DNA from: Anaerolineae bacterium
Lineage (GTDB): Bacteria; Chloroflexota; Anaerolineae; Aggregatilineales; Ch27
Assembly: GCA_013178165.1 (NCBI GenBank)
Contig: JABLXG010000023.1
Location: 1-64,000, forward strand
Reading direction: 5' to 3'
Length of the DNA stretch: 64,000 nucleotides
The translations under genes and the position numbers were made by a program. Shown one piece after another: positions 36,610 through 54,580 of the stretch. The first letter of the stretch is position 1; every line of letters starts with the position of its first letter. The notes under the pieces were generated by a model. The model ran no database searches. It saw nothing but the letters and a program-made list of their open reading frames with translations, and was not told where the DNA came from.

Positions 36610-37179
36610 ATGGCGGACATTCAATGGGAGGACGTCTGGCGCCGCCTGGATTGGGACCGCCAGGAGCGTCGCTACGCCGACCAGATCCTTGCCCAGCGCA
36701 CCGCCAAGTACGCCCGCCTGGTGGAGGAGGGCGCTCCGCTCGATCAGGCGACGCTGAGCACCCTGGTCTTCATCCGGGCCGGTGAACGCTACGCCCTGCC
36801 GGTAGCGCATGTACTGCGCGGGGCGGCGCCGGCGCGGGTTACGCCGCTACCCGGCGTGCCGCCCTGCTATCGGGGCGTGATCAGCCTGCGCGGGCGCATC
36901 CTCTCCGTGCTGGATCTACCGCGCCTGTGGGGTCTGCCGGTGGATCGGGACCCGCCCAACCCGCGCCTGATCGTTATCCAGGCTGCCCGGCTGATGCTGG
37001 CCCTGCTGGCGGACGACATTCTGGAAATTGCACATATCCCGCTCAGCGCGATCGTCCCTCCGCTCGCTGCTGGCATCGGGCTGGCCCATGTTCAGGGCCT
37101 CAGCCCGGACGGTACGATTCTTGTGGATGTGGCCAGCCTGGCCGCCGATCCCCGCCTTAACGTGCATGACGAGCTGTAG
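36610..37179 (+). CDS. cheW: CheW-domain coupling protein with N-terminal extension
   Basis: A 189-residue CheW. The first 45 residues are a charged helical extension not seen in minimal CheW ('WEDVWRRLDWDRQERRYADQILAQRTAKYARL'). The CheW beta domain follows, with 'TLVFIRAGERYALPVAHVLRG', 'VTPLPGVPPCYRGVISLRGRILSVLDLPRLWGL' and 'VDVASLAADP'. It couples receptors to the CheA kinase. First gene of an eight-gene operon that runs to 44254. The helical extension could mediate an additional contact or oligomerisation. Confidence 0.9.
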   Translation: MADIQWEDVWRRLDWDRQERRYADQILAQRTAKYARLVEEGAPLDQATLSTLVFIRAGERYALPVAHVLRGAAPARVTPLPGVPPCYRGVISLRGRILSVLDLPRLWGLPVDRDPPNPRLIVIQAARLMLALLADDILEIAHIPLSAIVPPLAAGIGLAHVQGLSPDGTILVDVASLAADPRLNVHDEL

Positions 37180-37199: not shown

Positions 37200-38513
37200 G
37201 TGAGCCAAGACAGGGTAATCTCCCAACTGCCAGAGCGGGCCGCCCCTGCGGCCTCCACCCCGCGACCCTTGCTGAACCGCCAGGTGTTGGCGCTCGGCCT
37301 GTTGAGCCTGTTGCCGCTGGCGTTGCTGGCGCTCGGCGCGCTGCTGGCCGCCAACGCCCTGGCTGCCAGCTTGAGCCAGGCCGATCTGCCCGCCACTGCC
37401 AGGCAGCAGGCCGCTGACCTGCCGGGCCAGATCGCCAGCATGGGGCTGGTGGTGGCCCTGGCGACATTGTTCGGGGTAATGGTGCTGGCGGCGCGTCAAC
37501 GGGGTCGCCAGCAGCAGGCGGAAGATGAGCGTCTCCGGCGGATCATGGACTTCGTCGGGCAGGTCAACAGCGGCGATCTGACCGCCCGTCTCGCCGCCCG
37601 CCCGGATGACGACCTGAGCTTCCGCAAGCTGGCCGAGGCGCTCAATGTGATGACCGACGGCATCCACCGCATGACCATCGAAGTCCGCACGGCCATCCAG
37701 GGACTTTCCGCTTCGGCGGATGAAATCCTGCACGCCACTGCCCGCCAGATCGACGCCGCCACCCAGCAGGACACCGTCGTTGCCCAGACCACCGCCACTG
37801 TCAACGAGGTACGGGCCACCGTCACCCAGACCGCCGAACGCGCCCAGCACGTGGCGGAAAACGCCCAGGCCTCGATCGAAGTCTCCCGTTCCGGGGAGCA
37901 GGCCGTTGCCGACGCGATCGAGGGCATGCACCTGATCCGCCGCAAGGTGGAAGATATCGCCGATAACATCCTGATTCTCTCCGAACACACCCAGCAGATC
38001 GGGGAGATCATCGCCACTGTCAACAGCATCGCCGACCAGTCCAAGATGCTGGCCCTCAACGCCAGCGTGGAAGCCGCCCGCGCCGGGGAAGAGGGCAAAG
38101 GCTTCGCCGTGGTCGCCCTGGAAGTCCGCAACCTGGCCGAGCAAAGCCGCGAGGCCACCGCCCAGGTCCGCGATATTCTCAGCGAAATCCAGCGGGCCAC
38201 CAACGCGGCGGTCATGGTCACCGAGGAGGGCACCAAAGGCGTCGATCGGGGCGTCAGCCTGGTTGACCGCGCCGGGCAGACCATTAAGGAGCTGGCCAGC
38301 ACCATTGAGGAAAACGCCGTCGCTGCCGTCCAGATCGCGGCCAGCACCCGCCAGCAGGCCGTCGGCATGGATCAACTCACCAACGCCATGCACACCATCA
38401 AGGAAGCCACTGTCGAGGCCACCGAAAGCACCATGAAGGTGGAACGCAATGTCCAGCAGCTGCGGGGAATCGCCGCCCACATGGGCGCCAGCCTCAACCG
38501 CTACCGCGTGTAA
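37200..38513 (+). CDS. Methyl-accepting chemotaxis protein-like receptor with almost no sensor domain
   Basis: A 437-residue receptor. Two helices at about 30-52 and 82-101 leave only about 28 residues outside the membrane, far too few for a ligand-binding domain. A HAMP-like segment (about 115-165, 'QVNSGDLTARLAARPDDDLSFRKLAEALN') leads to the long signalling coiled coil. Its tip reads 'SKMLALNASVEAARAGEEGKGFAVVALEVRNLAEQS'. No C-terminal NWETF-type tether. GTG 37200. The signal must come through the membrane or another protein. Methylation sites may exist, yet no CheR is encoded here. Confidence 0.9.
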   Translation: MSQDRVISQLPERAAPAASTPRPLLNRQVLALGLLSLLPLALLALGALLAANALAASLSQADLPATARQQAADLPGQIASMGLVVALATLFGVMVLAARQRGRQQQAEDERLRRIMDFVGQVNSGDLTARLAARPDDDLSFRKLAEALNVMTDGIHRMTIEVRTAIQGLSASADEILHATARQIDAATQQDTVVAQTTATVNEVRATVTQTAERAQHVAENAQASIEVSRSGEQAVADAIEGMHLIRRKVEDIADNILILSEHTQQIGEIIATVNSIADQSKMLALNASVEAARAGEEGKGFAVVALEVRNLAEQSREATAQVRDILSEIQRATNAAVMVTEEGTKGVDRGVSLVDRAGQTIKELASTIEENAVAAVQIAASTRQQAVGMDQLTNAMHTIKEATVEATESTMKVERNVQQLRGIAAHMGASLNRYRV

Positions 38514-38539: not shown

Positions 38540-40789
38540 GTGGTAACCACACCGTCTGATGACCTGCTCGCCATCTTCTGGGGGGAAGCCACCGACTATC
38601 TGGAGGCGCTCAACCGCATTCTGCTCCAGCTGGAGGTGACTGCCCCCGGCGATGATGCCGCCTCCCGCCTGCGCGAGGTCGCCCGTATCGCTCACAGCCT
38701 CAAGGGCGCGGCCCGCGCCGTCGGCCAGACGGCCATTGAAAAGCTGGCCCACCACATGGAGGATATCTTTGGCCTGGCGCTGGCCGGTCAACTGGTACTC
38801 ACCCCGGCGGTCTGCGACGCCCTGTATGACGGTCTGGACCTGATCCAGCTCTTTGCGGAAGGTTCAGCCGTTTCCCCCGACTTGGTGGAACAGGCCGTGC
38901 ATGGCCTGCAAACCGCCGCCAGCAGCCATGCCGCCGCCGAAACTGTTGAACTGACTGCCGTGCCGTCGGAAGTCCTGCCGGCGGTCACGTATGCGACTGA
39001 TGACACGGTACGGGTCAGCCTGAGCAAGCTCGACCAGCTCATGGGCCAGACCAGCGAGTTGCTGCTGGCCCGCATGCACAGCGAGCAACGCCGTCAGGAT
39101 GTCCAGTCGCTGCTGGAAGAGCACCACCGCTGGCGGCGGCTGTGGCGGCAGGCCCGCCCCGCCTACATCCGGGCCACCCGCCGCCTGCGCGATTCACGCT
39201 CCCCCGGCGCTCCCGCTGAGGGCAGCGCCGACCTGTTCGCCCTGCTGGATTTTCTGGATAGCACCCAACATTACCTGGCCGAGTCTGGCCGCCATCTGGC
39301 GGCGCTGGGGCGGGCGCTGGCCCAGGATAACCTGCACCTGACCGCGCTGGTGGACGCTTTGCAGGCCGATATCGCCAGTGTGCGCATGTTGCCCTTCGCC
39401 ACCATCCTGGGCGCTTTCCAGCGCATGGTGCGCGACCTGGCCCGCGCCGATGGCAAGGAGGTCGCGCTGGCTGTGGAGGGCGCACAGGTCGAGCTGGACA
39501 AGCACGTCCTGGAAATGCTCAAGGACCCGCTGATGCACATTCTGCGCAACGCTGTCGACCATGGCATTGAGCCGCCTGACGTCCGCGTTGCTGCTGGCAA
39601 GCCTCCCGCCGGGACCATCCGGCTGACCGTCAGTACGCGGGGGCACGACATTCACGTTGCTGTGCACGACGACGGGCGCGGTATCGACCCGGAAGCTGTC
39701 AGCCGGCGCGCTCTGGAAGCCGGTCTGATCGGCGAAGTGGACGCCAAAGATCTATCCGATGATGAGATCACCGCCCTGATCTTCGAGCCGGGTTTTTCCA
39801 CCGCCAGCCGGGTGACTCCCGTCTCCGGGCGGGGGCTGGGGCTGGATGTCGTCCGCCGGCGGGTGGAGGCGCTGCGCGGGCGGCTGTGGGTGGAAAACCG
39901 CCCCGGCCAGGGCGTGACCTTTCACCTGATCGTCCCCGTTTCGTTGACACGCACCCGCTGCCTGCTGGCCCGCATCGGCCCGGAGACTTACGCCATCCCC
40001 CTGACCAGCGTGACGCGCATCATCACTGTCGATCCGGCGGCGGTTTTTGCGGTAGAAAGTCGCCCGATGATCGAGGTCGATGGGCGGCCCGTTCCCCTGA
40101 CCCACCTGGCGACAGTGCTGGAACGCCCCGATCCGCCCGCGCCGCTTTCCTCCGCCTCCCCGATTCTGATCCTGCACTCCACCGAACATCGCCAGGCGGC
40201 TTTCATCATCGACGAACTGGTCAGCGAGCAGGAACTGGTGCTCAAAGCGCTGGGGGAAGAGCTGGGGCATGTCCGCAACGTGGCTGGCGCGGCGATCCTG
40301 GGCACCGGCGAGGTGATCATCGTGCTCAACCCCTCCGACTTGATCAAGAGCGCCCGCCGGGCGCGGGCCGCCATCACCCGCGCCTCCCAGATTCCTGCCG
40401 TTCCGGAGGTGGCAGCGCCGGGCCGACCCTGCATCCTGATCATTGACGATTCGCTGACCACGCGCACGCTGGAAAAGAACATCCTGGAGGCAGCAGGTTT
40501 TCAGGTGCGGACGGCAACCGACGCCGACGAAGCATTGCGCGTGCTGCTTGAGCACCCAATCGACGTGATCGTATCCGATATCGAGATGCCCGGCCTGAAC
40601 GGATTCGACCTGACCCGCCGCCTGAAGGCCGATGCCCGCTGGCGGGATATCCCGGTCATCCTGGTGACCTCCCGCGATTCGCCCGGCGATCGGGAGCGCG
40701 GCCTGCAGGCTGGCGCGGACGCTTACGTGGCTAAGTCCGAATTTGACCAGGATGAGTTGCTGCGAATCATCGGGCAGATGGTGGTATGA
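38540..40789 (+). CDS. cheA: CheA-type histidine kinase fused to a receiver domain
   Basis: A 749-residue hybrid kinase. P1 (Hpt) carries the phosphorylated His in 'RIAHSLKGAARAVG' (about 52). No P2 docking domain is recognisable. The P3 region is enlarged (about 160-310). P4 (ATPase) has the N box 'HILRNAVDHGIEPP' and 'DDGRGIDPE', 'GRGLGLDVVRRRVE'. P5 (CheW-like) runs from about 470. The C-terminal receiver (about 630-749) has the phosphoacceptor Asp in 'VIVSDIEMPGLNGF', the acidic pair in 'ILIIDDSLTTR' and Lys in 'AYVAKSEFDQ'. CheA-REC fusions are typical of FrzE- and ChpA-type systems. GTG 38540 follows GGGGAG. Overlaps cheB by 4 bases. Confidence 0.92.
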   Translation: MVTTPSDDLLAIFWGEATDYLEALNRILLQLEVTAPGDDAASRLREVARIAHSLKGAARAVGQTAIEKLAHHMEDIFGLALAGQLVLTPAVCDALYDGLDLIQLFAEGSAVSPDLVEQAVHGLQTAASSHAAAETVELTAVPSEVLPAVTYATDDTVRVSLSKLDQLMGQTSELLLARMHSEQRRQDVQSLLEEHHRWRRLWRQARPAYIRATRRLRDSRSPGAPAEGSADLFALLDFLDSTQHYLAESGRHLAALGRALAQDNLHLTALVDALQADIASVRMLPFATILGAFQRMVRDLARADGKEVALAVEGAQVELDKHVLEMLKDPLMHILRNAVDHGIEPPDVRVAAGKPPAGTIRLTVSTRGHDIHVAVHDDGRGIDPEAVSRRALEAGLIGEVDAKDLSDDEITALIFEPGFSTASRVTPVSGRGLGLDVVRRRVEALRGRLWVENRPGQGVTFHLIVPVSLTRTRCLLARIGPETYAIPLTSVTRIITVDPAAVFAVESRPMIEVDGRPVPLTHLATVLERPDPPAPLSSASPILILHSTEHRQAAFIIDELVSEQELVLKALGEELGHVRNVAGAAILGTGEVIIVLNPSDLIKSARRARAAITRASQIPAVPEVAAPGRPCILIIDDSLTTRTLEKNILEAAGFQVRTATDADEALRVLLEHPIDVIVSDIEMPGLNGFDLTRRLKADARWRDIPVILVTSRDSPGDRERGLQAGADAYVAKSEFDQDELLRIIGQMVV

Positions 40790-41856
40790 CAGCTGTGGAC
40801 AGGAAGTTGCGCGTCCTGATCGTTGATGATAGCGCCACCGTGCGGCGCTTCCTCTCCGACCTGGTTAACAGCACGCCCGACATGACGGTAGTCGGCGAAG
40901 CGCGTGACGGCCAGGAAGCTGTGGCCATGGCCGCCAGCCTGCGCCCGGACGTGATCAGTATGGACATCCAGATGCCTGTGATGGACGGGCTGGCGGCCAC
41001 CGAGTTGCTGATGCGGCAGCAACCGCTGCCGATCGTGATCGTCAGCAGCCGCCTGGAGCGCAACGAGAAGACGGTCGATCTGGCCTTTCTGGCCCTGCAG
41101 GCCGGGGCGCTGGCCGTGCTCAAGACCCCGCCAGCCGCCAGCCATCCCGACTATCCCGCCGCCCGCGACCAGTTCCTGGGCACGCTGCGGGCGATGGCCG
41201 CCGTGAGTGTGGTGCGCCGCTGGCAAACCAGGCCGATCCCACCGACCGGCGAGACGCTGCCCCGCGCTGCGCCGCCGCTGGTGATCGCCATTGGCGCCAG
41301 CGCCGGCGGCCCGATGGCCCTGCACACCATCCTGGGCGCGCTACCCGCCGATTTTCCGATCCCGATCGCGGTGGTGCAGCACATGGCCGAGGGCTTCATT
41401 GAAGGGCTGGTGCGCTGGTTGGACGGCAGCAGTCGGCTGCGCGTCCGGCTGGCGGAGCCGGGACAGCTCCTGCAGCCGGGTGAAGTGACCGTCGCCAGTA
41501 GCGCCGGTCATCTGACGCTGCACCGTGTTGGTGACCGCGCCCGCGCTTATGTGGATACTGAGCGCGGCCCCACACCCTACCAGCCGTCCGTTGACCGTCT
41601 CTTTGCCTCGATTGCCGAGGGCTTTGGCCCGCGGGCCGTAGGCATCCTGCTGACAGGCATGGGCGATGACGGTGCGCACGGGCTGCTGCAGATGCGCCAG
41701 CGGGGCGCGCGGACGATCGCGCAGGACGAAGAGTCCTGCCTGGTGTATGGGATGCCACGTGCGGCGGTGGAACTGGGCGCAGTGGAGCAGGTGTTGCCGC
41801 TGAAGGCTATCGCCCCGGCTCTGCTGACGCTGGCACAAACCGTTCAACCGCGGTAA
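40786..41856 (+). CDS. cheB: CheB: receptor methylesterase with receiver domain
   Basis: A 356-residue CheB. The N-terminal receiver has 'VLIVDDSATVRRFL' and the phosphorylated Asp in 'VISMDIQMPVMDGL'. The C-terminal esterase (about 165-350) shows the triad: Ser in 'IGASAGGPMAL', His in 'VVQHMAEGFIEGL' and Asp in 'TGMGDDGAHGL'. It removes methyl groups (or amidates) from receptor Glu/Gln residues. Its methylating counterpart CheR is absent from the cluster and from the window, so either another locus supplies it or this CheB mainly deamidates. Starts within the cheA stop codon. Confidence 0.93.
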   Translation: MTAVDRKLRVLIVDDSATVRRFLSDLVNSTPDMTVVGEARDGQEAVAMAASLRPDVISMDIQMPVMDGLAATELLMRQQPLPIVIVSSRLERNEKTVDLAFLALQAGALAVLKTPPAASHPDYPAARDQFLGTLRAMAAVSVVRRWQTRPIPPTGETLPRAAPPLVIAIGASAGGPMALHTILGALPADFPIPIAVVQHMAEGFIEGLVRWLDGSSRLRVRLAEPGQLLQPGEVTVASSAGHLTLHRVGDRARAYVDTERGPTPYQPSVDRLFASIAEGFGPRAVGILLTGMGDDGAHGLLQMRQRGARTIAQDEESCLVYGMPRAAVELGAVEQVLPLKAIAPALLTLAQTVQPR

Positions 41857-41994: not shown

Positions 41995-42369
41995 ATGGCG
42001 CCCGAAGTATTACTGGTAGAGGACAGCCGCACCCAGGCGGCGCAGATCAAGGAGACGCTGGAAAGCGTGGGGCTGAAGGTGCGCGTCGCTTATGATGGCC
42101 CGGAAGGTCTCCGCGAGGCGTTGGAAAACCCCCCGGCGCTTGTTGTGCTGGATGTCAAGTTGCCCACGATGGACGGCTTTCAGGTCTGCCGCCGGTTAAA
42201 GCGTCACCCGGCCACCCAGCACATCCCGGTCATCATGCTCACGGAAAAGGCCAGCGCCAAGGCCACGATGTCCGGCCTGCAGGCCGGGGCCGACGATTAC
42301 ATCCCGAAGGATATCTTTGCTTCGGAGCATCTGATCACCACCCTGCGCGAACTGGGTGTACTGGAGTAG
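41995..42369 (+). CDS. cheY: CheY-type single-domain response regulator
   Basis: A 124-residue stand-alone receiver. All catalytic positions are present: acidic pair in 'LLVEDSRTQAAQI', phosphoacceptor Asp in 'LVVLDVKLPTMDGF', Thr in 'VIMLTEKAS' and Lys in 'DDYIPKDIF'. It should be phosphorylated by the CheA-REC kinase and carry the output. Whether the target is a flagellar motor, type IV pili or another device cannot be told; none of those genes is in the window. Confidence 0.9.
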   Translation: MAPEVLLVEDSRTQAAQIKETLESVGLKVRVAYDGPEGLREALENPPALVVLDVKLPTMDGFQVCRRLKRHPATQHIPVIMLTEKASAKATMSGLQAGADDYIPKDIFASEHLITTLRELGVLE

Positions 42370-42393: not shown

Positions 42394-42837
42394 ATGGCCA
42401 AGGACGATTATGTCGTCATCCCGCCGGTGCTCACTGTCCCTGTCGAAGATAGCATGGACATCATGATCGCGCGGGATACCGCCCGGCGCGCCGCCGGTCT
42501 GCTTGGCTTTGCCCCGGCCTTCCGCGCTCAACTGGCGGGCGCGGCGGGTGCGCTGGCAGAACTGGTGCTCAAGACCGGGACGCTGCACGAGATCGACTTC
42601 AAAGGTGTGCAACGCGGCAGGGATGTGGGCATCCAGATCTCCTGTCAGGCCCGCTGGCTGACCAACGTCTCTCCCGCCAATGTGGAGATGGCCCTGCGGG
42701 CCAAACTGGGCGATCTGGTGGATGATATCGCCCTGATCGGGAACGCCCCGCCGGTGATCACCCTGACCATGTGGCTTACCGCGCCACGGGAGATCAGGGA
42801 CACGGAAAACCCGCCGCTGGATGAGCCGGAATCATGA
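42394..42837 (+). CDS. RsbT-like anti-sigma-factor/ATPase-fold protein
   Basis: A 147-residue protein whose core (about 18-110) resembles RsbT/RsbW-type GHKL ATPases: 'VPVEDSMDIMIARDTARRAAGLLGFAPAFRAQLAGAAGALAELVLKTG' matches the N-terminal part of RsbT, up to the helix with the Asn-type metal ligand (here the position reads Glu-Leu-Val-Leu, without a clear Asn). A longer beta part follows. RsbT relatives act in partner-switching complexes with STAS proteins; no STAS protein is encoded here. Placed between cheY and cheW, with a 4-base overlap with the latter, so it is a component of this system. Confidence 0.7.
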   Translation: MAKDDYVVIPPVLTVPVEDSMDIMIARDTARRAAGLLGFAPAFRAQLAGAAGALAELVLKTGTLHEIDFKGVQRGRDVGIQISCQARWLTNVSPANVEMALRAKLGDLVDDIALIGNAPPVITLTMWLTAPREIRDTENPPLDEPES

Positions 42838-43301
42838 GCGTCGAATCGATCCCTGTGCTGATCTGTATGGCCGGTGAGCGGCCTTACGCCCTGCCGGTGG
42901 ACGACATTCTGGAGGTGGCGGCGCTGGTGGCGATCACGCCGTTGCCCGCCGCCCCGCCGGAAATCGTCGGCGTGGTCAACCGGCGCGGGGCGGCCCTGCC
43001 GCTGCTTGATCTGCGCCGCTGCCTGGGGCATCCGGCCCGCCCGCTGGACCTGACTACCCTGTTTGTCGTGGTGCAGGCGCCCGACGCCAGCACCGGCAGG
43101 CAACGGATGGCCGGCCTGATCACCGATGACATCCGCGGGGTGATCCACCTGCCGGCGACAGCCAGGCAACTCCCTGCCACCGGTGGCCCTTTCGTGCGCG
43201 GCATGGCGATCGTCGATGATGTGCCGGTGCTGGTGCTGGATGTTGCGGCGCTGCTGCGCGCTTACGCGCCGCCCGATCTGATCGGTGAGAGGATGGCATG
43301 A
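42834..43301 (+). CDS. cheW: Second CheW-domain protein
   Basis: A 155-residue minimal CheW: 'LICMAGERPYALPVDDILEVAALVAITPLPAAPPEIVGVVNRRGAALPLLDLRRCLG' is the first half, and 'LVLDVAALLRAY' closes the fold. It overlaps both neighbours by 4 bases. It shares the 'ERYALPV / ERPYALPV' and 'LPG.PP / LPAAPPEIVGV' features with the CheW at 36610 but lacks its N-terminal helical extension. Two CheW proteins can give distinct array contacts or competing couplings. Confidence 0.9.
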   Translation: MSVESIPVLICMAGERPYALPVDDILEVAALVAITPLPAAPPEIVGVVNRRGAALPLLDLRRCLGHPARPLDLTTLFVVVQAPDASTGRQRMAGLITDDIRGVIHLPATARQLPATGGPFVRGMAIVDDVPVLVLDVAALLRAYAPPDLIGERMA

Positions 43302-44254
43302 CCGAGCAAGACTTCAAGCGCCACGAACGCATCCTGATCGTCGCCAGGGATGACGAATTGCGCGAAGCGCTGGTCGATACGCTGGAGAACGCTGGCGGCT
43401 ACCTGACCAGTCAGGCCACCAGCTTTGAGGAGGCCCTGAGCGAACTGCTGCTTAGCGATTTTAGCCTGGTGATCACCGAGACCGAGTTGCCCGACCTGAG
43501 TGGCATGGACCTGCTGGCCGTAGTCGGCGGGCTGCGCCCCGGCATTTCGGTGATGATGATTGACGACGATCTGTCAGCCAAATCAGCCGTGGCTGCCTTC
43601 CGCCTGGGCGCGGTGGATTACCTGTACAAGCCGGTCAACCTGGAATTTATCCTCATGCAGGTTGAACGGGAGATGATGGCCAAACGCGCCCGCGCTGTCC
43701 CGCCGCCACCGGAGCCGCCGCGCCACGTGACGCCCCGCAACCGCGAGTTACGGCTCAACCCCGACACCCGCGCCGCCGCCCTGATGCTCAACCGCGCCCA
43801 GTTCAAGCGCATCACCGTTGAACTCAACCGGCTGCGCGCCCATGTACGGGCCAATTTCGTCGGCCTGGTGGATGCAGACGGCAACATGATCGGCGCGGCG
43901 GGCACACTGGAAGACTACGACCTGACGCTGCTGACCAAAGCCCTGGCCATCGATCACGACGCCACCAAGTCGCTGGCGGCCATCCTGGATGAGAACCGCT
44001 TCCATTCGACCTACTTTGAGGGTGAGCACAGCGGTGTCTATATCATCGAGTTCGGACGGCCCTACCTGGTCTCGCTGGCAGTGATCTGCCCGGTGGATGT
44101 CAAGCCGGGCATGGTCTGGCTCTATAGCAAACGCACCGCCGCCACAATTGACGAAATTCTGCAGTCCATACCGGCCCCTCGCGCGGTGCCCAACCTGCAA
44201 CCTGAAGACTCTTCTCCGGAGGCTTCCCCGCCGGATGAGGAGGCCTCACGCTGA
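43298..44254 (+). CDS. Degenerate receiver fused to a roadblock/LC7-like domain
   Basis: A 318-residue two-domain protein. The N-terminal half (1-125) has the receiver fold ('ERILIVARDDELREALVDTLENAGG'), but the phosphoacceptor Asp is Glu ('LVITETELPDLSG') and the first acidic pair is altered to Ala-Arg; Lys ('YLYKPVN') is kept. So it probably cannot be phosphorylated and may mimic the phosphorylated state. A Pro-rich linker (about 130-145) leads to a roadblock/LC7-type domain (about 165-285) with 'LNRLRAHVRANFVGLVDADGNMIGAAG', where small GTPases or partners of the MglB type bind. The tail is acidic. Last gene of the operon. Confidence 0.78.
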   Translation: MTEQDFKRHERILIVARDDELREALVDTLENAGGYLTSQATSFEEALSELLLSDFSLVITETELPDLSGMDLLAVVGGLRPGISVMMIDDDLSAKSAVAAFRLGAVDYLYKPVNLEFILMQVEREMMAKRARAVPPPPEPPRHVTPRNRELRLNPDTRAAALMLNRAQFKRITVELNRLRAHVRANFVGLVDADGNMIGAAGTLEDYDLTLLTKALAIDHDATKSLAAILDENRFHSTYFEGEHSGVYIIEFGRPYLVSLAVICPVDVKPGMVWLYSKRTAATIDEILQSIPAPRAVPNLQPEDSSPEASPPDEEASR

Positions 44255-44913: not shown

Positions 44914-46452
44914 ATGAGGCGCACGGGCGTCATTGTGCTGATCGCATTGGGCGGATTACTGCTGACCGCCTGCGAATCGTCACCGCTGTTGGTGGCGTCG
45001 ACTGCCTTTGCGCCAACGGTTCCCCCGCCGCCGGGCACGCCGGTCAGCGGGGCGGAGACGATTATCCTGACTCCGGAGGCTCCAATGGCCGGCGCGATCC
45101 AGACGCAGGGCCAGGAGCATCGCTACACCTTCCACGCTGAGGCTGGCCAGGCAGTCACGATCGTGATGCAGGCCCCGCCCGGCGGTCTGCTGGACAGCTA
45201 CCTGGAGTTGCGCGGGCCGGACGGCGCGACGCTGGTCGTCAACGACGACGGCGGGGGCGGCGTTGATAGCCGCATTGACAATTTCATCCTGCCGGTCAGC
45301 GGGGAGTACACCCTGCTGGCGTACGGTTTCAACCATGCCAGCCTCGGCAGTTACGGCCTGCGCCTGAGCCTGGGGACGCCTATCCCGACGCCTACCCCCA
45401 CGCCAACCCTGCCTCCCGGTGGCGGGTCGATCAGCATCGGGCAGACGCGCCGAGGGGCGATCAATACCTCCGGACAGGCCGATCTCTGGCAATTTTCCGC
45501 CCGGCCTGGCCAGTATGTCACCATCAATCTGCGGGCGGTCAGCGGCACCGCCTTTGACCCCTATCTGGAAGTGCTTGATCCCGATGGCTTGGTCGTGCGC
45601 ATCGACGATGACAGCGGCGGCAGGCTGGACGCCCGCATCACCAACCTGCTCCTGACCCGCAGCGGCGCCTATACCCTGCGCGTCAGCAGCCAGAGCGGCC
45701 GCATCGGCGCTTACGAGCTGGCGCTACAGGCGGGCCAGCCGCCTACGCCCACCCCCCTGCCGCCTACACCCGGCCCCTCTCCCACACCGTTCATCCGCCT
45801 CCTCACCCTGGGCCAACCGGTAGAGGCGGAATTGCGGCCCCATGTTGGCGGCGACATGTACCGCCTGTACGTGGAAGAGCCGCTGGCGGTGGAAATCCTG
45901 CTGGAGGCGCTGAACGAACAACTCAACCTCTACCTGGAACTGACCGAGCCGGTTTCCGGCAGCCAGATGCTGGTAGATTACAACGGTGCGTCCTCGGTGG
46001 TGTACCTGCCCAGTATCTTTCTGCGCATGCGCGGCGAGTACACTTTCCGCGTGCTGGGCGTGGAAAGCCGTTTCATCCCCTATCGGCTGCTGATCAACCG
46101 GGTGGATTCCACCACCGGGGCAAGCGGCGGGCCGCTGGCTTATGGCCAGGGCGTCAGCGGCGCGCTGATCTTCCCCGGCCAGGAAGATGTCTGGACATTC
46201 GAGGGATGGGCTGGCGACCGGGTCACCATCATGATGAAGGGCGCCGGGGTCGACTCCTACCTGCAACTGTTCGATCCCACCGGTGCGCAGATCGCCGCCA
46301 ACGATGATCTGCGCGGCGCTAGCTCGCTGGATGCCCGTCTGGAGCGCGTGCCCCTGCCGGTGGATGGCACGTACCGGATTGTGGCCTCCAGCTACCGTTC
46401 CCGGACGTTCGGCCCGTACCGGCTGCTGCTGTTCCGCGTGGACGGTGGATGA
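44914..46452 (+). CDS. Lipoprotein with four PPC-like beta repeats
   Basis: A 512-residue exported lipoprotein; the lipobox 'LLLTACESS' puts the acylated Cys at about 19. Four repeats of about 100 residues follow, matching pre-peptidase C-terminal (PPC)-type beta sandwiches. Each has a signal of the type 'VNDDGGGGVDSRIDN', 'IDDDSGGRLDARITN', 'LVDYNGASSVVYLPS' or 'AANDDLRGASSLDAR', and an aromatic 'YTL' strand. The Pro/Thr linkers 'IPTPTPTPTLPPGGG' and 'PTPTPLPPTPGPSPTP' separate repeats. No protease domain is attached. A surface binding or structural role is likely. The stop overlaps the next start (ATGA). Confidence 0.8.
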   Translation: MRRTGVIVLIALGGLLLTACESSPLLVASTAFAPTVPPPPGTPVSGAETIILTPEAPMAGAIQTQGQEHRYTFHAEAGQAVTIVMQAPPGGLLDSYLELRGPDGATLVVNDDGGGGVDSRIDNFILPVSGEYTLLAYGFNHASLGSYGLRLSLGTPIPTPTPTPTLPPGGGSISIGQTRRGAINTSGQADLWQFSARPGQYVTINLRAVSGTAFDPYLEVLDPDGLVVRIDDDSGGRLDARITNLLLTRSGAYTLRVSSQSGRIGAYELALQAGQPPTPTPLPPTPGPSPTPFIRLLTLGQPVEAELRPHVGGDMYRLYVEEPLAVEILLEALNEQLNLYLELTEPVSGSQMLVDYNGASSVVYLPSIFLRMRGEYTFRVLGVESRFIPYRLLINRVDSTTGASGGPLAYGQGVSGALIFPGQEDVWTFEGWAGDRVTIMMKGAGVDSYLQLFDPTGAQIAANDDLRGASSLDARLERVPLPVDGTYRIVASSYRSRTFGPYRLLLFRVDGG

Positions 46453-47621
46453 CAGGCCATCCGCCGGGGATGACGATGATCCGACGCCTGAGCCTCATCT
46501 GTCTGCTCACTCTTGTGACTACCGGTGCCCCGGTCGAGCCTGTGCAGGCCCAGGGCGACCCCCTGACCTTTGGCCAGCCGATCGAAGCCATCCTGCCGCC
46601 AGGCGCGATCCATACCTACACCTTCCGCAGCGAAGGCCAGGATCGGGTGAGCGCCGCCATGACCACGACTGACCCGGCGCTTGATCCGGTTCTTGTCCTG
46701 TATGACCCGGCAGGTACGCTGATCGCCTTCAGCGATGACGCAGCCCCCGGTCAGCGCGACGCAGCCCTGGTCGACGTGCCGCTGACCGCGCCCGGCGTCT
46801 ACACGCTGGTGGCCCGTTCTTATGGCCGGCGGGGCGGCGGCGCGTACACGCTGGAGGTCTCCAGCCGCCGCGCCGGGATGCTGGCCGAAAGCACGCCGAT
46901 CGCGCTTGGAGAGACGGCAACAGGGGAGATTCGCGCCCTCGGGCAGGTCGACCGCTGGTTGTTTGAGGGCGTCGCCGGGCAGGTCATCAGCATCGGCCTG
47001 GATGCTGCGCCGGGTTCGGGCCTCGACCCGCTGCTGGAGCTACTGGCGGCGGATGGTTCCTTGCTGGCAACGAGCGACGATGAAGGCGGCGGGCGTAACA
47101 GCCTGATCAGCGGCTTCGTCCTGCCGTCCGCCGGCCCATACGTAATCGTTGCTCGTGCCTGGGGCCATACCTCGACCGGGCCGTATACCCTGCATCTGAT
47201 GGAAGGGGTGCACACTCCGGCTCCCCTCCCTGCTGCATCCTCCCCGACTCCCGCGCCGGTGCTGGAGGTGCTGCCGCCGGTCAGCCAGATCGGGGCAATC
47301 GCCCCCGGTGAGGTGGTCAACGGTCTGCTGCCCGCCGGGACGATGCACCTCTGGACGCTGACGGTGGATAGGCCGCTGCAGCTTGATGTACGGCTTGAAG
47401 GGATCGATGGGGCGCTGGACACGCTGCTGGACGTGATCGGTCCGGACGGCGTCCTGCTGGCCCGCGATGATGATGGCGGCGGGGGCGGAGGTAGCCGCCT
47501 GCCGGTCCTGCGCCTGCCTGCCGCCGGGACGTACACCCTGCGCGTGCGCGCCTACCTGGCTGCCGGGCAGGGCGCTTACCGCCTGAGCGTGAGCCAGCCA
47601 GCCAGTATGGCGGGCGACTGA
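46449..47621 (+). CDS. Exported protein with three PPC-like beta repeats
   Basis: A 390-residue exported protein with signal peptide (about 1-35, ending 'VEPVQAQ'). Three repeats of the same kind as in the preceding lipoprotein: 'LIAFSDDAAPGQRDAALVDV', 'LLATSDDEGGGRNSLISGF' and 'LLARDDDGGGGGGSRLPVL' are equivalent segments. The two genes probably arose by duplication and are translationally coupled. Unlike its neighbour it has no lipobox, so it may be released or bound to the first protein. Confidence 0.78.
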   Translation: MTGHPPGMTMIRRLSLICLLTLVTTGAPVEPVQAQGDPLTFGQPIEAILPPGAIHTYTFRSEGQDRVSAAMTTTDPALDPVLVLYDPAGTLIAFSDDAAPGQRDAALVDVPLTAPGVYTLVARSYGRRGGGAYTLEVSSRRAGMLAESTPIALGETATGEIRALGQVDRWLFEGVAGQVISIGLDAAPGSGLDPLLELLAADGSLLATSDDEGGGRNSLISGFVLPSAGPYVIVARAWGHTSTGPYTLHLMEGVHTPAPLPAASSPTPAPVLEVLPPVSQIGAIAPGEVVNGLLPAGTMHLWTLTVDRPLQLDVRLEGIDGALDTLLDVIGPDGVLLARDDDGGGGGGSRLPVLRLPAAGTYTLRVRAYLAAGQGAYRLSVSQPASMAGD

Positions 47622-47712
47622 TAGCCACCCTTTCCTAGCCATCGGCGACGGGCAGTTGTGGTATCATGGCGTTAGTTTTGGTGGCTAACCACTGGCAGGG
47701 AAGGGTTGACCC

Positions 47713-49809
47713 ATGAGTCAGGTGCAGATGCGCAGGGCGGTTCTGGCGCTGCTCGGTGTGCTGCTGACGCTGGCAGCCTGCCAGCCCACGCCTACCCCGG
47801 AGATTCCGCGTGTGGCTGTTTTGCCCACCGCTACCCAGACGGACACGCCTGTGCCGCCGACCGTCACGCCGGTCGTGACGCCAACTGTCACGCTAACCCC
47901 CAGCCTGACTCTGACGCCGTCTTCTACCTGGACGCCCTATATCATTATCGCCACCTACACGCCGTCAATCACCTATACGCCCAGCCTGACCTACACGCCT
48001 TCCAACACGCCAACCCCCACTAACACGTTCACGCCCTCCCCGCCGCCGACCTTCACCCCGACCCAGGATCAGCCCGCCCCGGTGGTGGTGGCGGTGGCGC
48101 CGGATGTGCCGGGCCTGGTCACACCGCGCGATCCGCGTTGCCTGCCTACCACAACCACGATCACGGCCAACATCGAATCCAGCGTGGGGCTGTACACGCT
48201 GCGCCTGAACTACGTCTACAACACCCAGCCGGGGCAGGTCATCCTGATGGTCAACCAGGAAGGCAACCTGTACACCGCCGAACTGGGTCCCTTTGACCAG
48301 CCGGGGCAGGTGGCCTACTGGCTGTCGATGGCCGATAACTGGGGCAAATGGGTCACCACCGACCCGCAGCAGATCACCATCGCCGAATGCGATGTTGACG
48401 CGCTGAACGCTACCGCCGCCGCTGCTGCCACCAACGCTCTGACGGCTACCGCGCTGGCCGTCTTTGGCGGCGGGGGCAATCCGCTGGCCTTCCGCGCCGC
48501 CGACTTTGACCTGACCACGCCTTACCAGACGCCCATCCGGGTTACCTTTGCTGCCGTGAATGGCACGCCGCCTTACCGCTTCCTGATCAACAGCAACCCT
48601 GCCAACGGGCGGCTGATCGTGCTGGACGCCCAGACTGTCGAGTACCGGCCCAATGCGGGCTTCCTGGGCAATGACACCTTTACGTACCTGGCCAGTGACA
48701 GCAGCGGGCAGTCCGATGTGGGCATTGTGCGCGTGACCGTCGGCTCTAACCCGCTGGAGGCGGTCAGTCAGACGATCAGCGTCCCGCTGGATGCGGTCAA
48801 CTTCCCGATCACGCTGCAGGCCCGCAATGGCGTGCCGCCGTATACCACGGTGACCATCGTCACCTCGCCAGCGCAGGGCACGCTGACGCCCGACGGCATT
48901 GACCCGTTCAAGTTCTACTACACCCCACCGGCGGGCTTTACCGGCACAACCCAGTTTGTCTGGAGCGTGACGGACAGCAGCCCGGCCTATGCGCAGGGCA
49001 CGATCACGCTCAATGTCACCCCGCCCCCGCCAGGTGGCAAGATCGTCTTTGCCTCCAACAGCAGCGGGAACTGGGAAATCTACACCATGAATGCTGACGG
49101 ATCCGGCATCACCAACGTCTCCAACGCGCCAGCGTCGGATGAGCGCCAGCCAGCCCTCTCGCCGGATGGCTCGCGGATCGCCTTTATGTCCAACCGCGAT
49201 GGCAACGCCAACATCTACGTGATGAACGTGGATGGCTCCGGCGTGACCGCTCTGACTGCTGACCCGGCTACTGATAGTCAGCCGGCCTGGTCGCCGGACG
49301 GCAACTTCATCGCCTTTGTCTCTGACCGCAACGACAGTGCCGAAATCTGGCGGATGCAGGCCAGCGGCGCATCCCCCACCCGCCTCACCAGCAATTTCGT
49401 CAGCGACCAGCACCCGACCTATTCGCCGGACGGGCAGCGCATCGCCTTCCAGCGCGACGGCGGCGGCAGCACCCAGATCTACTCGATCCGGGCCAGCGAC
49501 GGCGGCGGGGAGCAGCAGCTGACTTCCAGCGGCGCCAACGTTGAACCCGACTGGGGCGCTAACGGGCGGATTGTCTTTGCTTCGAACCGCGATGGCGGGA
49601 GCTTTGACATCTTCGTGATGAATGGTGATGGCTCCGGCCAGGCCCGCCTGGTGAACAGCCCGCCTAACCGCTGGCCAGCCTGGTCGGGGGACGCTAACTG
49701 GGTGGTGTACTACCGTGACAACGGCGGTTCATGGGCGGTCTACCGCGCCTGGCGCGATGGCTCCGGGGAGACATTGCTAGCTTCCGGCGGGCTGGAGCCG
49801 GACTGGTAG
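47713..49809 (+). CDS. Lipoprotein with Pro/Thr stalk, cadherin-like repeats and PD40 propeller
   Basis: A 698-residue exported lipoprotein; lipobox 'LLTLAACQPT'. A Pro/Thr stalk (about 25-120) reaches a short beta domain with two Cys. Two tandem bacterial cadherin-like (tandem-95) modules follow (about 255-430), with 'YRPNAGFLGNDTFTYLASDSSG' and 'FYYTPPAGFTGTTQFVWSVTDSS'. The C-terminus (about 440-698) holds six TolB/PD40 blades, each 'NADGSGITNVSN... PALSPDGSRIAFMSNRDGNANIYVMN'-like. The propeller may bind another protein or glycan. Start ATG 47713 about 7 bases after a GGGAAGGG site. Cotranscription with the PPC genes is possible. Confidence 0.85.
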   Translation: MSQVQMRRAVLALLGVLLTLAACQPTPTPEIPRVAVLPTATQTDTPVPPTVTPVVTPTVTLTPSLTLTPSSTWTPYIIIATYTPSITYTPSLTYTPSNTPTPTNTFTPSPPPTFTPTQDQPAPVVVAVAPDVPGLVTPRDPRCLPTTTTITANIESSVGLYTLRLNYVYNTQPGQVILMVNQEGNLYTAELGPFDQPGQVAYWLSMADNWGKWVTTDPQQITIAECDVDALNATAAAAATNALTATALAVFGGGGNPLAFRAADFDLTTPYQTPIRVTFAAVNGTPPYRFLINSNPANGRLIVLDAQTVEYRPNAGFLGNDTFTYLASDSSGQSDVGIVRVTVGSNPLEAVSQTISVPLDAVNFPITLQARNGVPPYTTVTIVTSPAQGTLTPDGIDPFKFYYTPPAGFTGTTQFVWSVTDSSPAYAQGTITLNVTPPPPGGKIVFASNSSGNWEIYTMNADGSGITNVSNAPASDERQPALSPDGSRIAFMSNRDGNANIYVMNVDGSGVTALTADPATDSQPAWSPDGNFIAFVSDRNDSAEIWRMQASGASPTRLTSNFVSDQHPTYSPDGQRIAFQRDGGGSTQIYSIRASDGGGEQQLTSSGANVEPDWGANGRIVFASNRDGGSFDIFVMNGDGSGQARLVNSPPNRWPAWSGDANWVVYYRDNGGSWAVYRAWRDGSGETLLASGGLEPDW

Positions 49810-52885: not shown

Positions 52886-53221
52886 TCAGCCAATCGGCTC
52901 CGGATCGCGGTCGTGGAACTCCAGGTCGACGAGCGGCTCTTCCTTGTGGACGGTGCGCACACGGGCGCGCTCCGCGCAGGGGCCGACATGCTCGCACCAC
53001 CAGTCGCGCTCATCCCAGGCCGGTCCCCAGGGACCCTGGGGCGGGAACTGGGCATCCCACCAGCCTTCACAGGCAGCGCAGCAAAAATGACGCTCCGGCA
53101 AGGCATGGCGGTCTCGCTGGATGACTTTCTGATTGCCGGGCTGGCGGGTGATGTAGAAATCGACTGTGATCTCGGTGCCGCAGCCGTCGCAGACGAGGAT
53201 CGGTACAAGGCGCTTGCTCAT
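52886..53221 (-). CDS. Zinc-ribbon-like small protein
   Basis: I recognise no family. A 111-residue protein with CxxC pairs suggestive of zinc binding: 'VCDGCGTEITVDFY' near the N-terminus and 'HFCCAACEGWWD' in the middle. The C-terminus is acidic. It lay downstream of the YkgJ-type gene before an IS element landed between them; 133 bases now separate its start from the IS end. Confidence 0.6.
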   Translation of the reverse strand: MSKRLVPILVCDGCGTEITVDFYITRQPGNQKVIQRDRHALPERHFCCAACEGWWDAQFPPQGPWGPAWDERDWWCEHVGPCAERARVRTVHKEEPLVDLEFHDRDPEPIG

Positions 53222-53345
53222 GATCTGCCTCCCGAACGGACTGCTTCGGACGGGAGAGCCGCCGGGGAAGGCGGCGCGGCAGTGTCAGGGGGTAAGGCGA
53301 TGAAGCGGGGATGACAGACACCCGATCACTCTCATTATACACCGA

Positions 53346-54580
53346 ACAGGTCGCTAGGGCAATCGCATGTGCTTCTCTAATCTGGGCATAGCACGCGGAA
53401 TAGATAGTCATTGTCCCAGCCGGCCATCTTGCGTTTGGCCGCGATACCCACTTTGACGGATTTATCCTGTTTGAGCAGGTGGTTGCCATGTGGCGGAGCA
53501 CGGCCATGTTCTGGGGGGCATGGTCTTTGCGAAGGCGGGCTTCATCTTCACGGAAAGCGATGTCCAGCACCCAGTGGAGGCCGTTTTCAATCTGCCAATG
53601 GGCCTGGATGCGCTGCAAGAACTGCCGGGCGGAAGCCCGCCAACTACTGATGAAGTAGCGGGTTGTGATTTCCGTCCTGGTACCGATGGTGCGCACGGTT
53701 ATCAGTTTGACCAGGCTGGTTAGGCGTGGCCAGGTGGACGCACGGCGCAGGTAGGCCCAGTAATCGGGGTGGGCCACGACCCAACAGTGCCGGATTTCAC
53801 GGCGGCCATGCCCTTCGGTGACCTGTTTGTAGTCATCGTAGAGCGCATCGGCATATTCGGTGTCTTCAAAACCCTCAAATAACATCTCCAGGTCTTCGTA
53901 GAGTGTGCCCTGGTTCTCTTTGACCGCCAGGATGTAGTCGGCATCTGCCGCCACGATAGCCTCGGCAATCGCACTTTGTGTGCCCATGGCGTCAATCGTC
54001 ACCACACACCCGGTTATGTCCAGGGCCTCTAACAACGGCGGTATGGCGGTGATTTCATTGCTTTTGTCCTCCACCTGCCGCTGTCCCAGCACCAGTCGGT
54101 TCGCTGTTGCCCAGGCATTCACCATCCAAATGCCCTCTCGGCCATGGGGCCGGTCATGCGACCGCCGTAGCTTCTTGCCATCCACACTGACTAACTGACC
54201 TTGCGTGTGTTGGCACAGGCTTTGTGTCCAGGTGATGAACCGGGCTTGAAACGCTTCCGGGTCTAGCCAGCGAAACACTCGGCCAAAGGTGTCATGCGAC
54301 GGTATCCCATGGCTCAAGTCCAGGAAGCTTGCCAGCCACCCCTGCTTCGCCTTGCCGTACCGTTCGATGTCTACCCAGTTGTCGGCTCCACAAATCACCC
54401 CCAGGATGGCGATGACAATGATATTCATCAGCGGATGTGTGCATTATGGTCATTGCGCGGGTCTTCCAGGTCTGCAAAGTATGCGAGCAAGCTCGTTTCG
54501 GGTAGCATGGCAGCCTCCTTGTCGTTTGGCTGCCATTGTCCTACATTAGAGTTTCACATGCGATTGCCCTAACAGGTCGC
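53346..54580 (-). mobile_element. ISAs1-family insertion element with frameshifted transposase
   Basis: Terminal inverted repeats of 17 bases are perfect: TAGGGCAATCGCATGTG at 53355-53371 and its complement at 54555-54571. The 9-bp ACAGGTCGC at 53346-53354 repeats at 54572-54580, a target duplication (10 bp if the flanking A is counted). Length including repeats is about 1,217 bases. The insertion lies in the 3' end of the YkgJ-type gene and rewrites its last residues. The transposase is broken by two frameshifts, so the copy is probably immobile by itself. Confidence 0.93.
53377..54508 (-). pseudogene. ISAs1-family transposase with two frameshifts
   Basis: The reading frame starts at ATG 54508 (after AAGGAGG) as MLPETSLLAYFADLEDPRNDHNAH, the usual ISAs1 N-terminus, then loses frame near 54436: the following 'HPLMNIIVIAILGVICGADNW' is in another frame. 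From there it runs intact ('IPSHDTFGRVFRWLDPEAF', 'VSVDGKKLRRSHD', 'AVKENQGTLYEDLE', 'LRKDHAPQNMAVLRHMA'). Near 53484 a second one-base loss shifts out the expected ending 'LLKQDKSVKVGIAAKRKMAGWDNDYLFRVLCPD', which ends at 53377 in the proper frame. Each defect is explained by one missing base. Programmed frameshifting is unlikely because neither site is a slippery A/T stretch in the family's usual place. Confidence 0.88.

Follow-up and report, generated by a model that had tools for sequence, protein, structure and literature searches.

A pseudo-receiver fused to an MglB-like roadblock domain in a conserved chemosensory gene block of Anaerolineae

What can a receiver domain do in a chemosensory system when Glu occupies the place of its phosphoacceptor Asp and its output is a roadblock domain? 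The question is raised by a single open reading frame in an Anaerolineae genome of the order Aggregatilineales (assembly GCA_013178165.1). It lies in the window, that is, the whole stretch of 64,000 nucleotides analysed here (contig JABLXG010000023.1, positions 1 to 64,000). A 2025 review (PMC12632262) describes as a mystery the way in which bacterial pseudo-receivers are activated and inactivated, and the first-pass annotation of this DNA had proposed that the Glu mimics a phosphorylated Asp and that the fusion tethers the control of an MglA-type GTPase to the chemosensory array.

The fusion protein and its gene block

The fusion closes a run of chemosensory genes, all on the plus strand:

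36610–37179, plus strand: CheW1 (CheW, 78 bits)
37200–38513, plus strand: methyl-accepting chemotaxis protein (MCPsignal, 130 bits)
38540–40789, plus strand: CheA with a C-terminal canonical receiver (Hpt, HATPase, CheW and Response_reg), an optional member of the cluster, present upstream in roughly half of the loci
40786–41856, plus strand: CheB (CheB_methylest, 205 bits), present in 33/33 loci
41995–42369, plus strand: CheY with the canonical acceptor Asp (Pfam, 93 bits)
42394–42837, plus strand: degenerate RsbT-type HATPase (structure model, Foldseek and profile search), overlapping cheW2 by 4 bases
42834–43301, plus strand: CheW2 (CheW, 91 bits), its stop sharing 4 bases (ATGA) with the fusion start
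43298–44254, plus strand: fusion of a pseudo-receiver and an MglB-like roadblock domain (open reading frame of 318 amino acids with an ATG start; Response_reg and MglB matches; AlphaFold2 model)
43328–43669, plus strand: receiver-like domain, residues 11–124 (A16-R17, E61, D89, Y108 and K111 in an alignment of 42 distinct sequences)
43772–44191, plus strand: MglB-like roadblock/LC7 domain, residues 159–298 (profile match to MglB 6h5b, E 2e-14, and Foldseek match to MglB)

Residues 12–119 of the fusion give a full-length match to Pfam Response_reg (PF00072, positions 1–107 of 111) of 48.7 bits, over the cut-off of 30.2 bits. The C-terminal half is nearest to MglB, the GAP of MglA, both in sequence and in fold. 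Residues 161–292 match the MglB model NF052242 of NCBIfam with 34.7 bits, well under its equivalog cut-off of 200, and the MglB chains 6h5b, 6izw and 6hjm of the PDB are matched by the single sequence with E about 4e-9, a value that improves to 2e-14 for 6h5b when the family profile is the query. The AlphaFold2 model has a mean pLDDT of 84.5 and a pTM of 0.48, the latter being low, in our reading, by reason of two predicted domains joined by a weakly predicted linker. Both folds are recovered in it. The receiver half superposes on 7w9h over 115 columns at 0.9 Å, and on solved receivers overall at about 0.9–1.6 Å; the roadblock half superposes on MglB at about 4 Å, and the Foldseek TM to 6hjm is about 0.76 by target length. 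The roadblock domain foreseen in the first-pass annotation is thus borne out by the MglB matches and by Foldseek, Pfam Robl_LC7 taken alone staying at 20.5 bits, under its 23-bit cut-off.

The same order of genes, cheB-cheY-degenerate rsbT-cheW2-fusion with the fusion last, was found in all 33 species loci fetched; several of these come from close relatives, and the independent observations are therefore fewer than 33. Being co-encoded with core che genes across species, the fusion counts as a component of the Che system, and the first annotation of a pseudo-receiver with a roadblock domain among chemosensory genes is supported by its domain matches and by this block. The cheW1, MCP and cheA-receiver genes precede the block, as they do in the window, in 15 of the 33 loci; about 12 lack them in the visible upstream stretch, and the remainder are cut by contig ends. 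Spacing is tight at the downstream end: cheW2 of the window overlaps both of its neighbours by four bases, and a start codon of the fusion lies within about −20 to +24 bases of the cheW2 stop in 32 of the loci. The block of at least one genome (G009, locus L225) has no cheW2 between its two neighbours, and hence cheW2 is not strictly required. The CheY of the block is 69–99% identical across loci, well over its neighbours, CheB reaching about 44–67% outside the nearest relative. A flagellar output of this system is unlikely, since a profile search of the window genome gave no match to flagellin and the genome encodes two secretion/pilus-type ATPases.

The gene at 42394–42837 is conserved in all 33 che loci. 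Its product of 147 residues has no convincing sequence match in Pfam, NCBIfam or the PDB; its structure model (pLDDT 88.6) matches RsbW/SpoIIAB in Foldseek with E 7.5e-6, and the profile of its family matches the N-terminal half of canonical RsbT genes from other Chloroflexota with E about 1e-8. It shares the fold of the RsbT/RsbW-SpoIIAB family and is distantly homologous to RsbT. In each of the three loci read, the canonical RsbT match adjoins a STAS gene of the RsbS-like type, whereas the window gene lies in a Che block and not beside an rsbS-like gene. Canonical RsbT carries the N-box SELARNIFLYAG and the G1 box DQGPGI; at these positions the window family reads ALAELVLKTG and QARWL. Neither the N-box Asn nor the G1 box, by which a functional RsbT/RsbW kinase holds ATP, was found in the alignment of the RsbT-like family, both being present in the canonical homologue, and for that reason the product is probably unable to bind ATP.

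A receiver pocket altered throughout the family

By alignment the pocket of the fusion consists of A16-R17 at the acidic pair, E61 at the acceptor position, D89 at the Thr/Ser site, Y108 and K111. The Glu at the acceptor, the Ala-Arg in place of the acidic pair and the retained Lys that had been read from the sequence at first pass all hold; Asp89 in place of the Thr/Ser switch residue is a further change that had not been mentioned there. With these changes, four of the five residues that serve catalysis and switching are gone. Within the window's genome 67 receiver domains could be aligned; 58 of them keep the phosphoacceptor Asp, and none but the fusion has Asp in place of the Thr/Ser.

A receiver domain that is recognised by Pfam and is devoid of the phosphoacceptor Asp is what defines the PsR or ALR domains, such as those of FrzS, ChxR and RitR (PMC4395418, PMC12632262, PMC1974792), and the fusion has both properties. 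RitR resembles it further, in that its second acidic residue is Lys and its Thr/Ser is replaced by Asp (PMC4395418). The fusion differs from these proteins in its roadblock output, the word roadblock being absent from PMC4395418 and PMC12632262, and in its fixed place in a chemosensory block.

The altered pocket is not the oddity of one genome, since 41 further distinct orthologs carry the fusion. The family set comprises 42 distinct sequences, the window protein and 41 others from genome contigs and from 101 related genomes, 29 of which hold at least one clear copy. Asp18, Asp89 and Tyr108 are present in all 42 sequences and Lys111 in 41. Glu61 is present in 41; in the remaining one, the divergent paralog L076, this residue is Asp. 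Position 16 is taken by Ala, Gly or Thr and is never acidic, position 17 holds Lys or Arg in 34 sequences, and none of the 42 keeps the acidic pair. More divergent copies were also met (L224:2590-3549, L221:5411-6358, L222:7119-8039 and L223:7579-8565), three of which, L221, L223 and L224, sit outside the che block. Position 61 is Asp in L224 and Thr in L221, and both retain D89; judged on these alignments, D89 is a more constant feature of the family and its relatives than residue 61. Strong matches (E < 1e-60) in a roadblock-profile search of 396 genomes of the class came from the window's order only, and as far as searched the family appears restricted to that order.

Divergence between family members indicates that purifying selection acts on both halves of the protein, the dN/dS of measurable pairs being 0.04–0.12 for the receiver half and 0.06–0.20 for the roadblock half. 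The most conserved stretch is formed by residues 61–112, the α3-β4-α4-β5 face, with an average identity to the window protein of 86% across the family; residues 11–60 average 64%. This almost invariant α3-β5 face supports a docking role for the receiver half.

Canonical relatives, MglA and the small GTPases

Phosphorylatable REC-roadblock proteins occur across the class, and the DD, D, T and K of the pocket are kept in all 12 examined (L116–L120, L124, L126–L129, L099 and L227). They share the domain order of the fusion, with about 30% identity where measured, and differ from it in retaining the residues of which the fusion has lost all but the K. In an unrooted tree a branch supported at 100/100 sets them apart from the window family together with its paralogs. 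The C-terminal tails of L116–L119 are long and rich in Pro, with repeats of a short FEEAMKLGLL-type motif.

In two genomes, G008 and G004, the latter from the window's own taxonomic family, a canonical REC-roadblock gene shares an operon with a true MglA and a further roadblock protein. The operon of G004 (L227:11-4471) codes for a sensor kinase with a receiver, the canonical REC-roadblock protein, the second roadblock protein and MglA, and in addition for two proteins named by eye, one of them DUF4388-like with one half resembling a roadblock, the other small and roadblock-like. The most likely origin of the fusion family is a REC-roadblock regulator open to phosphorylation, like those beside MglA in these related bacteria, and its lineage would then have lost its control by phosphate and, in most genomes, MglA as a partner. 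Loss would be the natural direction of evolution but is not a proven one, since the tree is unrooted.

A search with the GTPase of G008 as query detected no true MglA in the window genome, which is 98.6% complete. Among 30 genomes true MglA was found only in G004, G008 and G009, the query being 67–70% identical to its counterparts in G004 and G009, and two of the 29 fusion-bearing genomes have it. A functional MglB would have a cognate MglA in its genome, and the window genome offers none; MglA as the partner was consequently dropped as the leading reading. The α2 helix of MglB contacts MglA (PMC6785124); the papers found on this contact gave the general α2 interface and no point mutants. The Ala-rich α2 stretch of MglB and of the MglA-linked REC-roadblock proteins (AGNVAAMGG / AANFAAA) is replaced by ALxIDHxAxxS in the fusion family. 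From MglB the fusion differs in carrying a receiver, in this changed stretch and in its genome being devoid of MglA.

By profile searches, the basis of all whole-genome statements made here, the window genome encodes four other clear roadblock proteins and two small GTPases of the Ras-like kind, one at G000:C4:51434-51964 with a DUF4388 gene beside it and one at G000:C9:82576-83067, neither of them linked to the che locus. The C4-type GTPase was found in 75 of the 101 relatives, namely in 29/29 genomes with the fusion family and in 46/72 without it (Fisher p 3e-5). This co-occurrence was rejected as evidence of a link, for nearly the whole order carries the GTPase and most genomes without it belong to a single genus, so that the association is confounded by descent and says little. 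The conserved che block, as seen in the 33 loci, includes no GTPase gene. With no MglA in the genome and no GTPase in the block, the initial proposal that the fusion tethers MglA-type GTPase control finds no support in the form in which it was put; a link to some GTPase is possible, with no positive evidence for it apart from co-occurrence.

Two known systems are comparable by description. MglC of Myxococcus xanthus, a roadblock protein, binds MglB as well as RomR, which is a receiver protein, and does not bind MglA (PMC10329633); it is likened to the fusion as a roadblock associated with a receiver without MglA binding, and not by sequence closeness, MglC being a separate small protein whereas receiver and roadblock form one chain here. 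The Frz-RomR-MglA/MglB circuit similarly links a chemosensory pathway to receiver and roadblock proteins (PMC3441718, PMC10329633), but does so with separate proteins and with phosphorylatable RomR and FrzZ, in contrast to one chain without acceptor and without MglA. No description of a REC-roadblock pseudo-receiver family, or of RsbT-like proteins in Che systems, was found in the open-access literature searched. Taken singly, Glu pseudo-receivers, roadblock proteins and Che clusters are familiar; their fixed combination with a degenerate RsbT appears to be undescribed in that literature, outside which most subscription papers lie.

Candidate roles of the fusion

The reading that we prefer, and to which we attach middling confidence, is that the fusion serves as a dedicated docking subunit or scaffold, independent of phosphorylation, of an order-specific chemosensory system. 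The roadblock half would dimerise as MglB does, the receiver half would dock through its α3-β5 face onto an operon partner (CheW2, the degenerate RsbT or the CheA/CheY machinery), and the coupled gene products may form a fixed complex at the array. This is what the fixation of the pocket losses in 42 sequences under purifying selection in both halves suggests, together with the constancy of the block in 33/33 loci, the tight spacing to cheW2 in 32/33 and the ATGA overlaps of the window. The degeneracy of the neighbouring RsbT, the intact pockets of the canonical relatives (12/12) and their separate grouping, the absence of MglA from the genome and the precedent of MglC point in the same direction. 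Against a scaffold stand the block of G009 that is devoid of cheW2, the few paralogs that lie off the block and the presence of at least one small Ras-like GTPase in every fusion-bearing genome. More tentatively, two domains without catalysis, the receiver and the RsbT-type kinase, could combine with a CheW and a dimerising roadblock into a permanent adaptor complex by which the array is diverted or organised, and this would amount to an undescribed, phosphate-free branch of Che signalling.

It seems rather unlikely that the roadblock half is instead an active GAP, a co-GAP or an anchor for one of the two small Ras-like GTPases, tethered to the chemosensory complex by the pseudo-receiver. MglB being its nearest known structure and sequence, the presence of the C4-type GTPase in every fusion-bearing genome and the occasional proximity of Group 1/5 MglA-type genes to PATAN-domain genes (PMC4316618), to which the DUF4388 neighbour may be likened, would favour such a role, but they are weighed against the descent that confounds the co-occurrence, a block devoid of GTPase genes, the missing MglA and the replaced α2 stretch. 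A receiver held in its active state by Glu61 in the manner of a phosphorylated Asp, as first annotated, is less probable still. In Asp-less receivers Glu replaces the acceptor more often than any other residue (26%; PMC4395418), Glu can partly activate some receivers, as is thought through the conserved Thr and Lys (PMC12632262), and Tyr108 is invariant in the family and Lys111 nearly so. However, all 42 sequences have Asp in the place of the Thr/Ser to which the Glu would bind, and this Asp is expected to repel it, both residues of the acidic pair are changed, and residue 61 becomes Asp or Thr in divergent relatives that keep D89. Moreover, some Glu pseudo-receivers have been shown to be independent of that residue (PMC12632262, PMC4395418), and in ChxR the Glu does not suffice to explain activity (PMC4395418). 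Of the docking unit locked on by its Glu that the first-pass annotation had envisaged, the docking is thus strengthened by the difference in conservation between residues 61–112 and 11–60, and the locking is weakened by the invariant Asp89.

Gating of the pseudo-receiver by a small molecule, or by a covalent change such as methylation of Glu61, is very improbable in our estimate. It has precedents in the ShkA pseudo-receiver, for which PMC7010744 gives c-di-GMP as the regulator, and in the methylation of Glu floated for Asp-less receivers (PMC4395418), with cheB in the block and a single CheR gene elsewhere in the window genome; no sequence sign of a ligand or methylation site was met in the other analyses. 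A decaying receiver remnant without function, as a pocket with one of its five catalytic and switch residues left could suggest, is rejected by the low dN/dS of the receiver half and the 86% identity over residues 61–112, and its probability is negligible.

For the docking subunit that we favour, more than 40 distinct orthologs are available, in which both the pocket signature (A/G16, E61, D89 and K111) and the operon context are fixed. The canonical relatives that keep the Asp provide matched pairs for studying the change from phosphate-controlled to phosphate-free signalling, and, given the degenerate RsbT close to the fusion, the block is a candidate for an assembly of signalling domains that have lost catalysis.

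Downstream of the cluster (44914–49809) the window encodes two PPC-domain proteins and a protein with a PD40 β-propeller and Ig-like domains, the whole set of which was found only in the nearest relative (L016). Farther on lies an IS element with a DDE_Tnp_1 transposase (53067–54428, minus strand), which is repeated on another contig of the genome (L095:9644-10501, G000:C4); the stretch there is 99.9% identical and adjoins, and apparently truncates, a response-regulator gene (L095:9129-9680).
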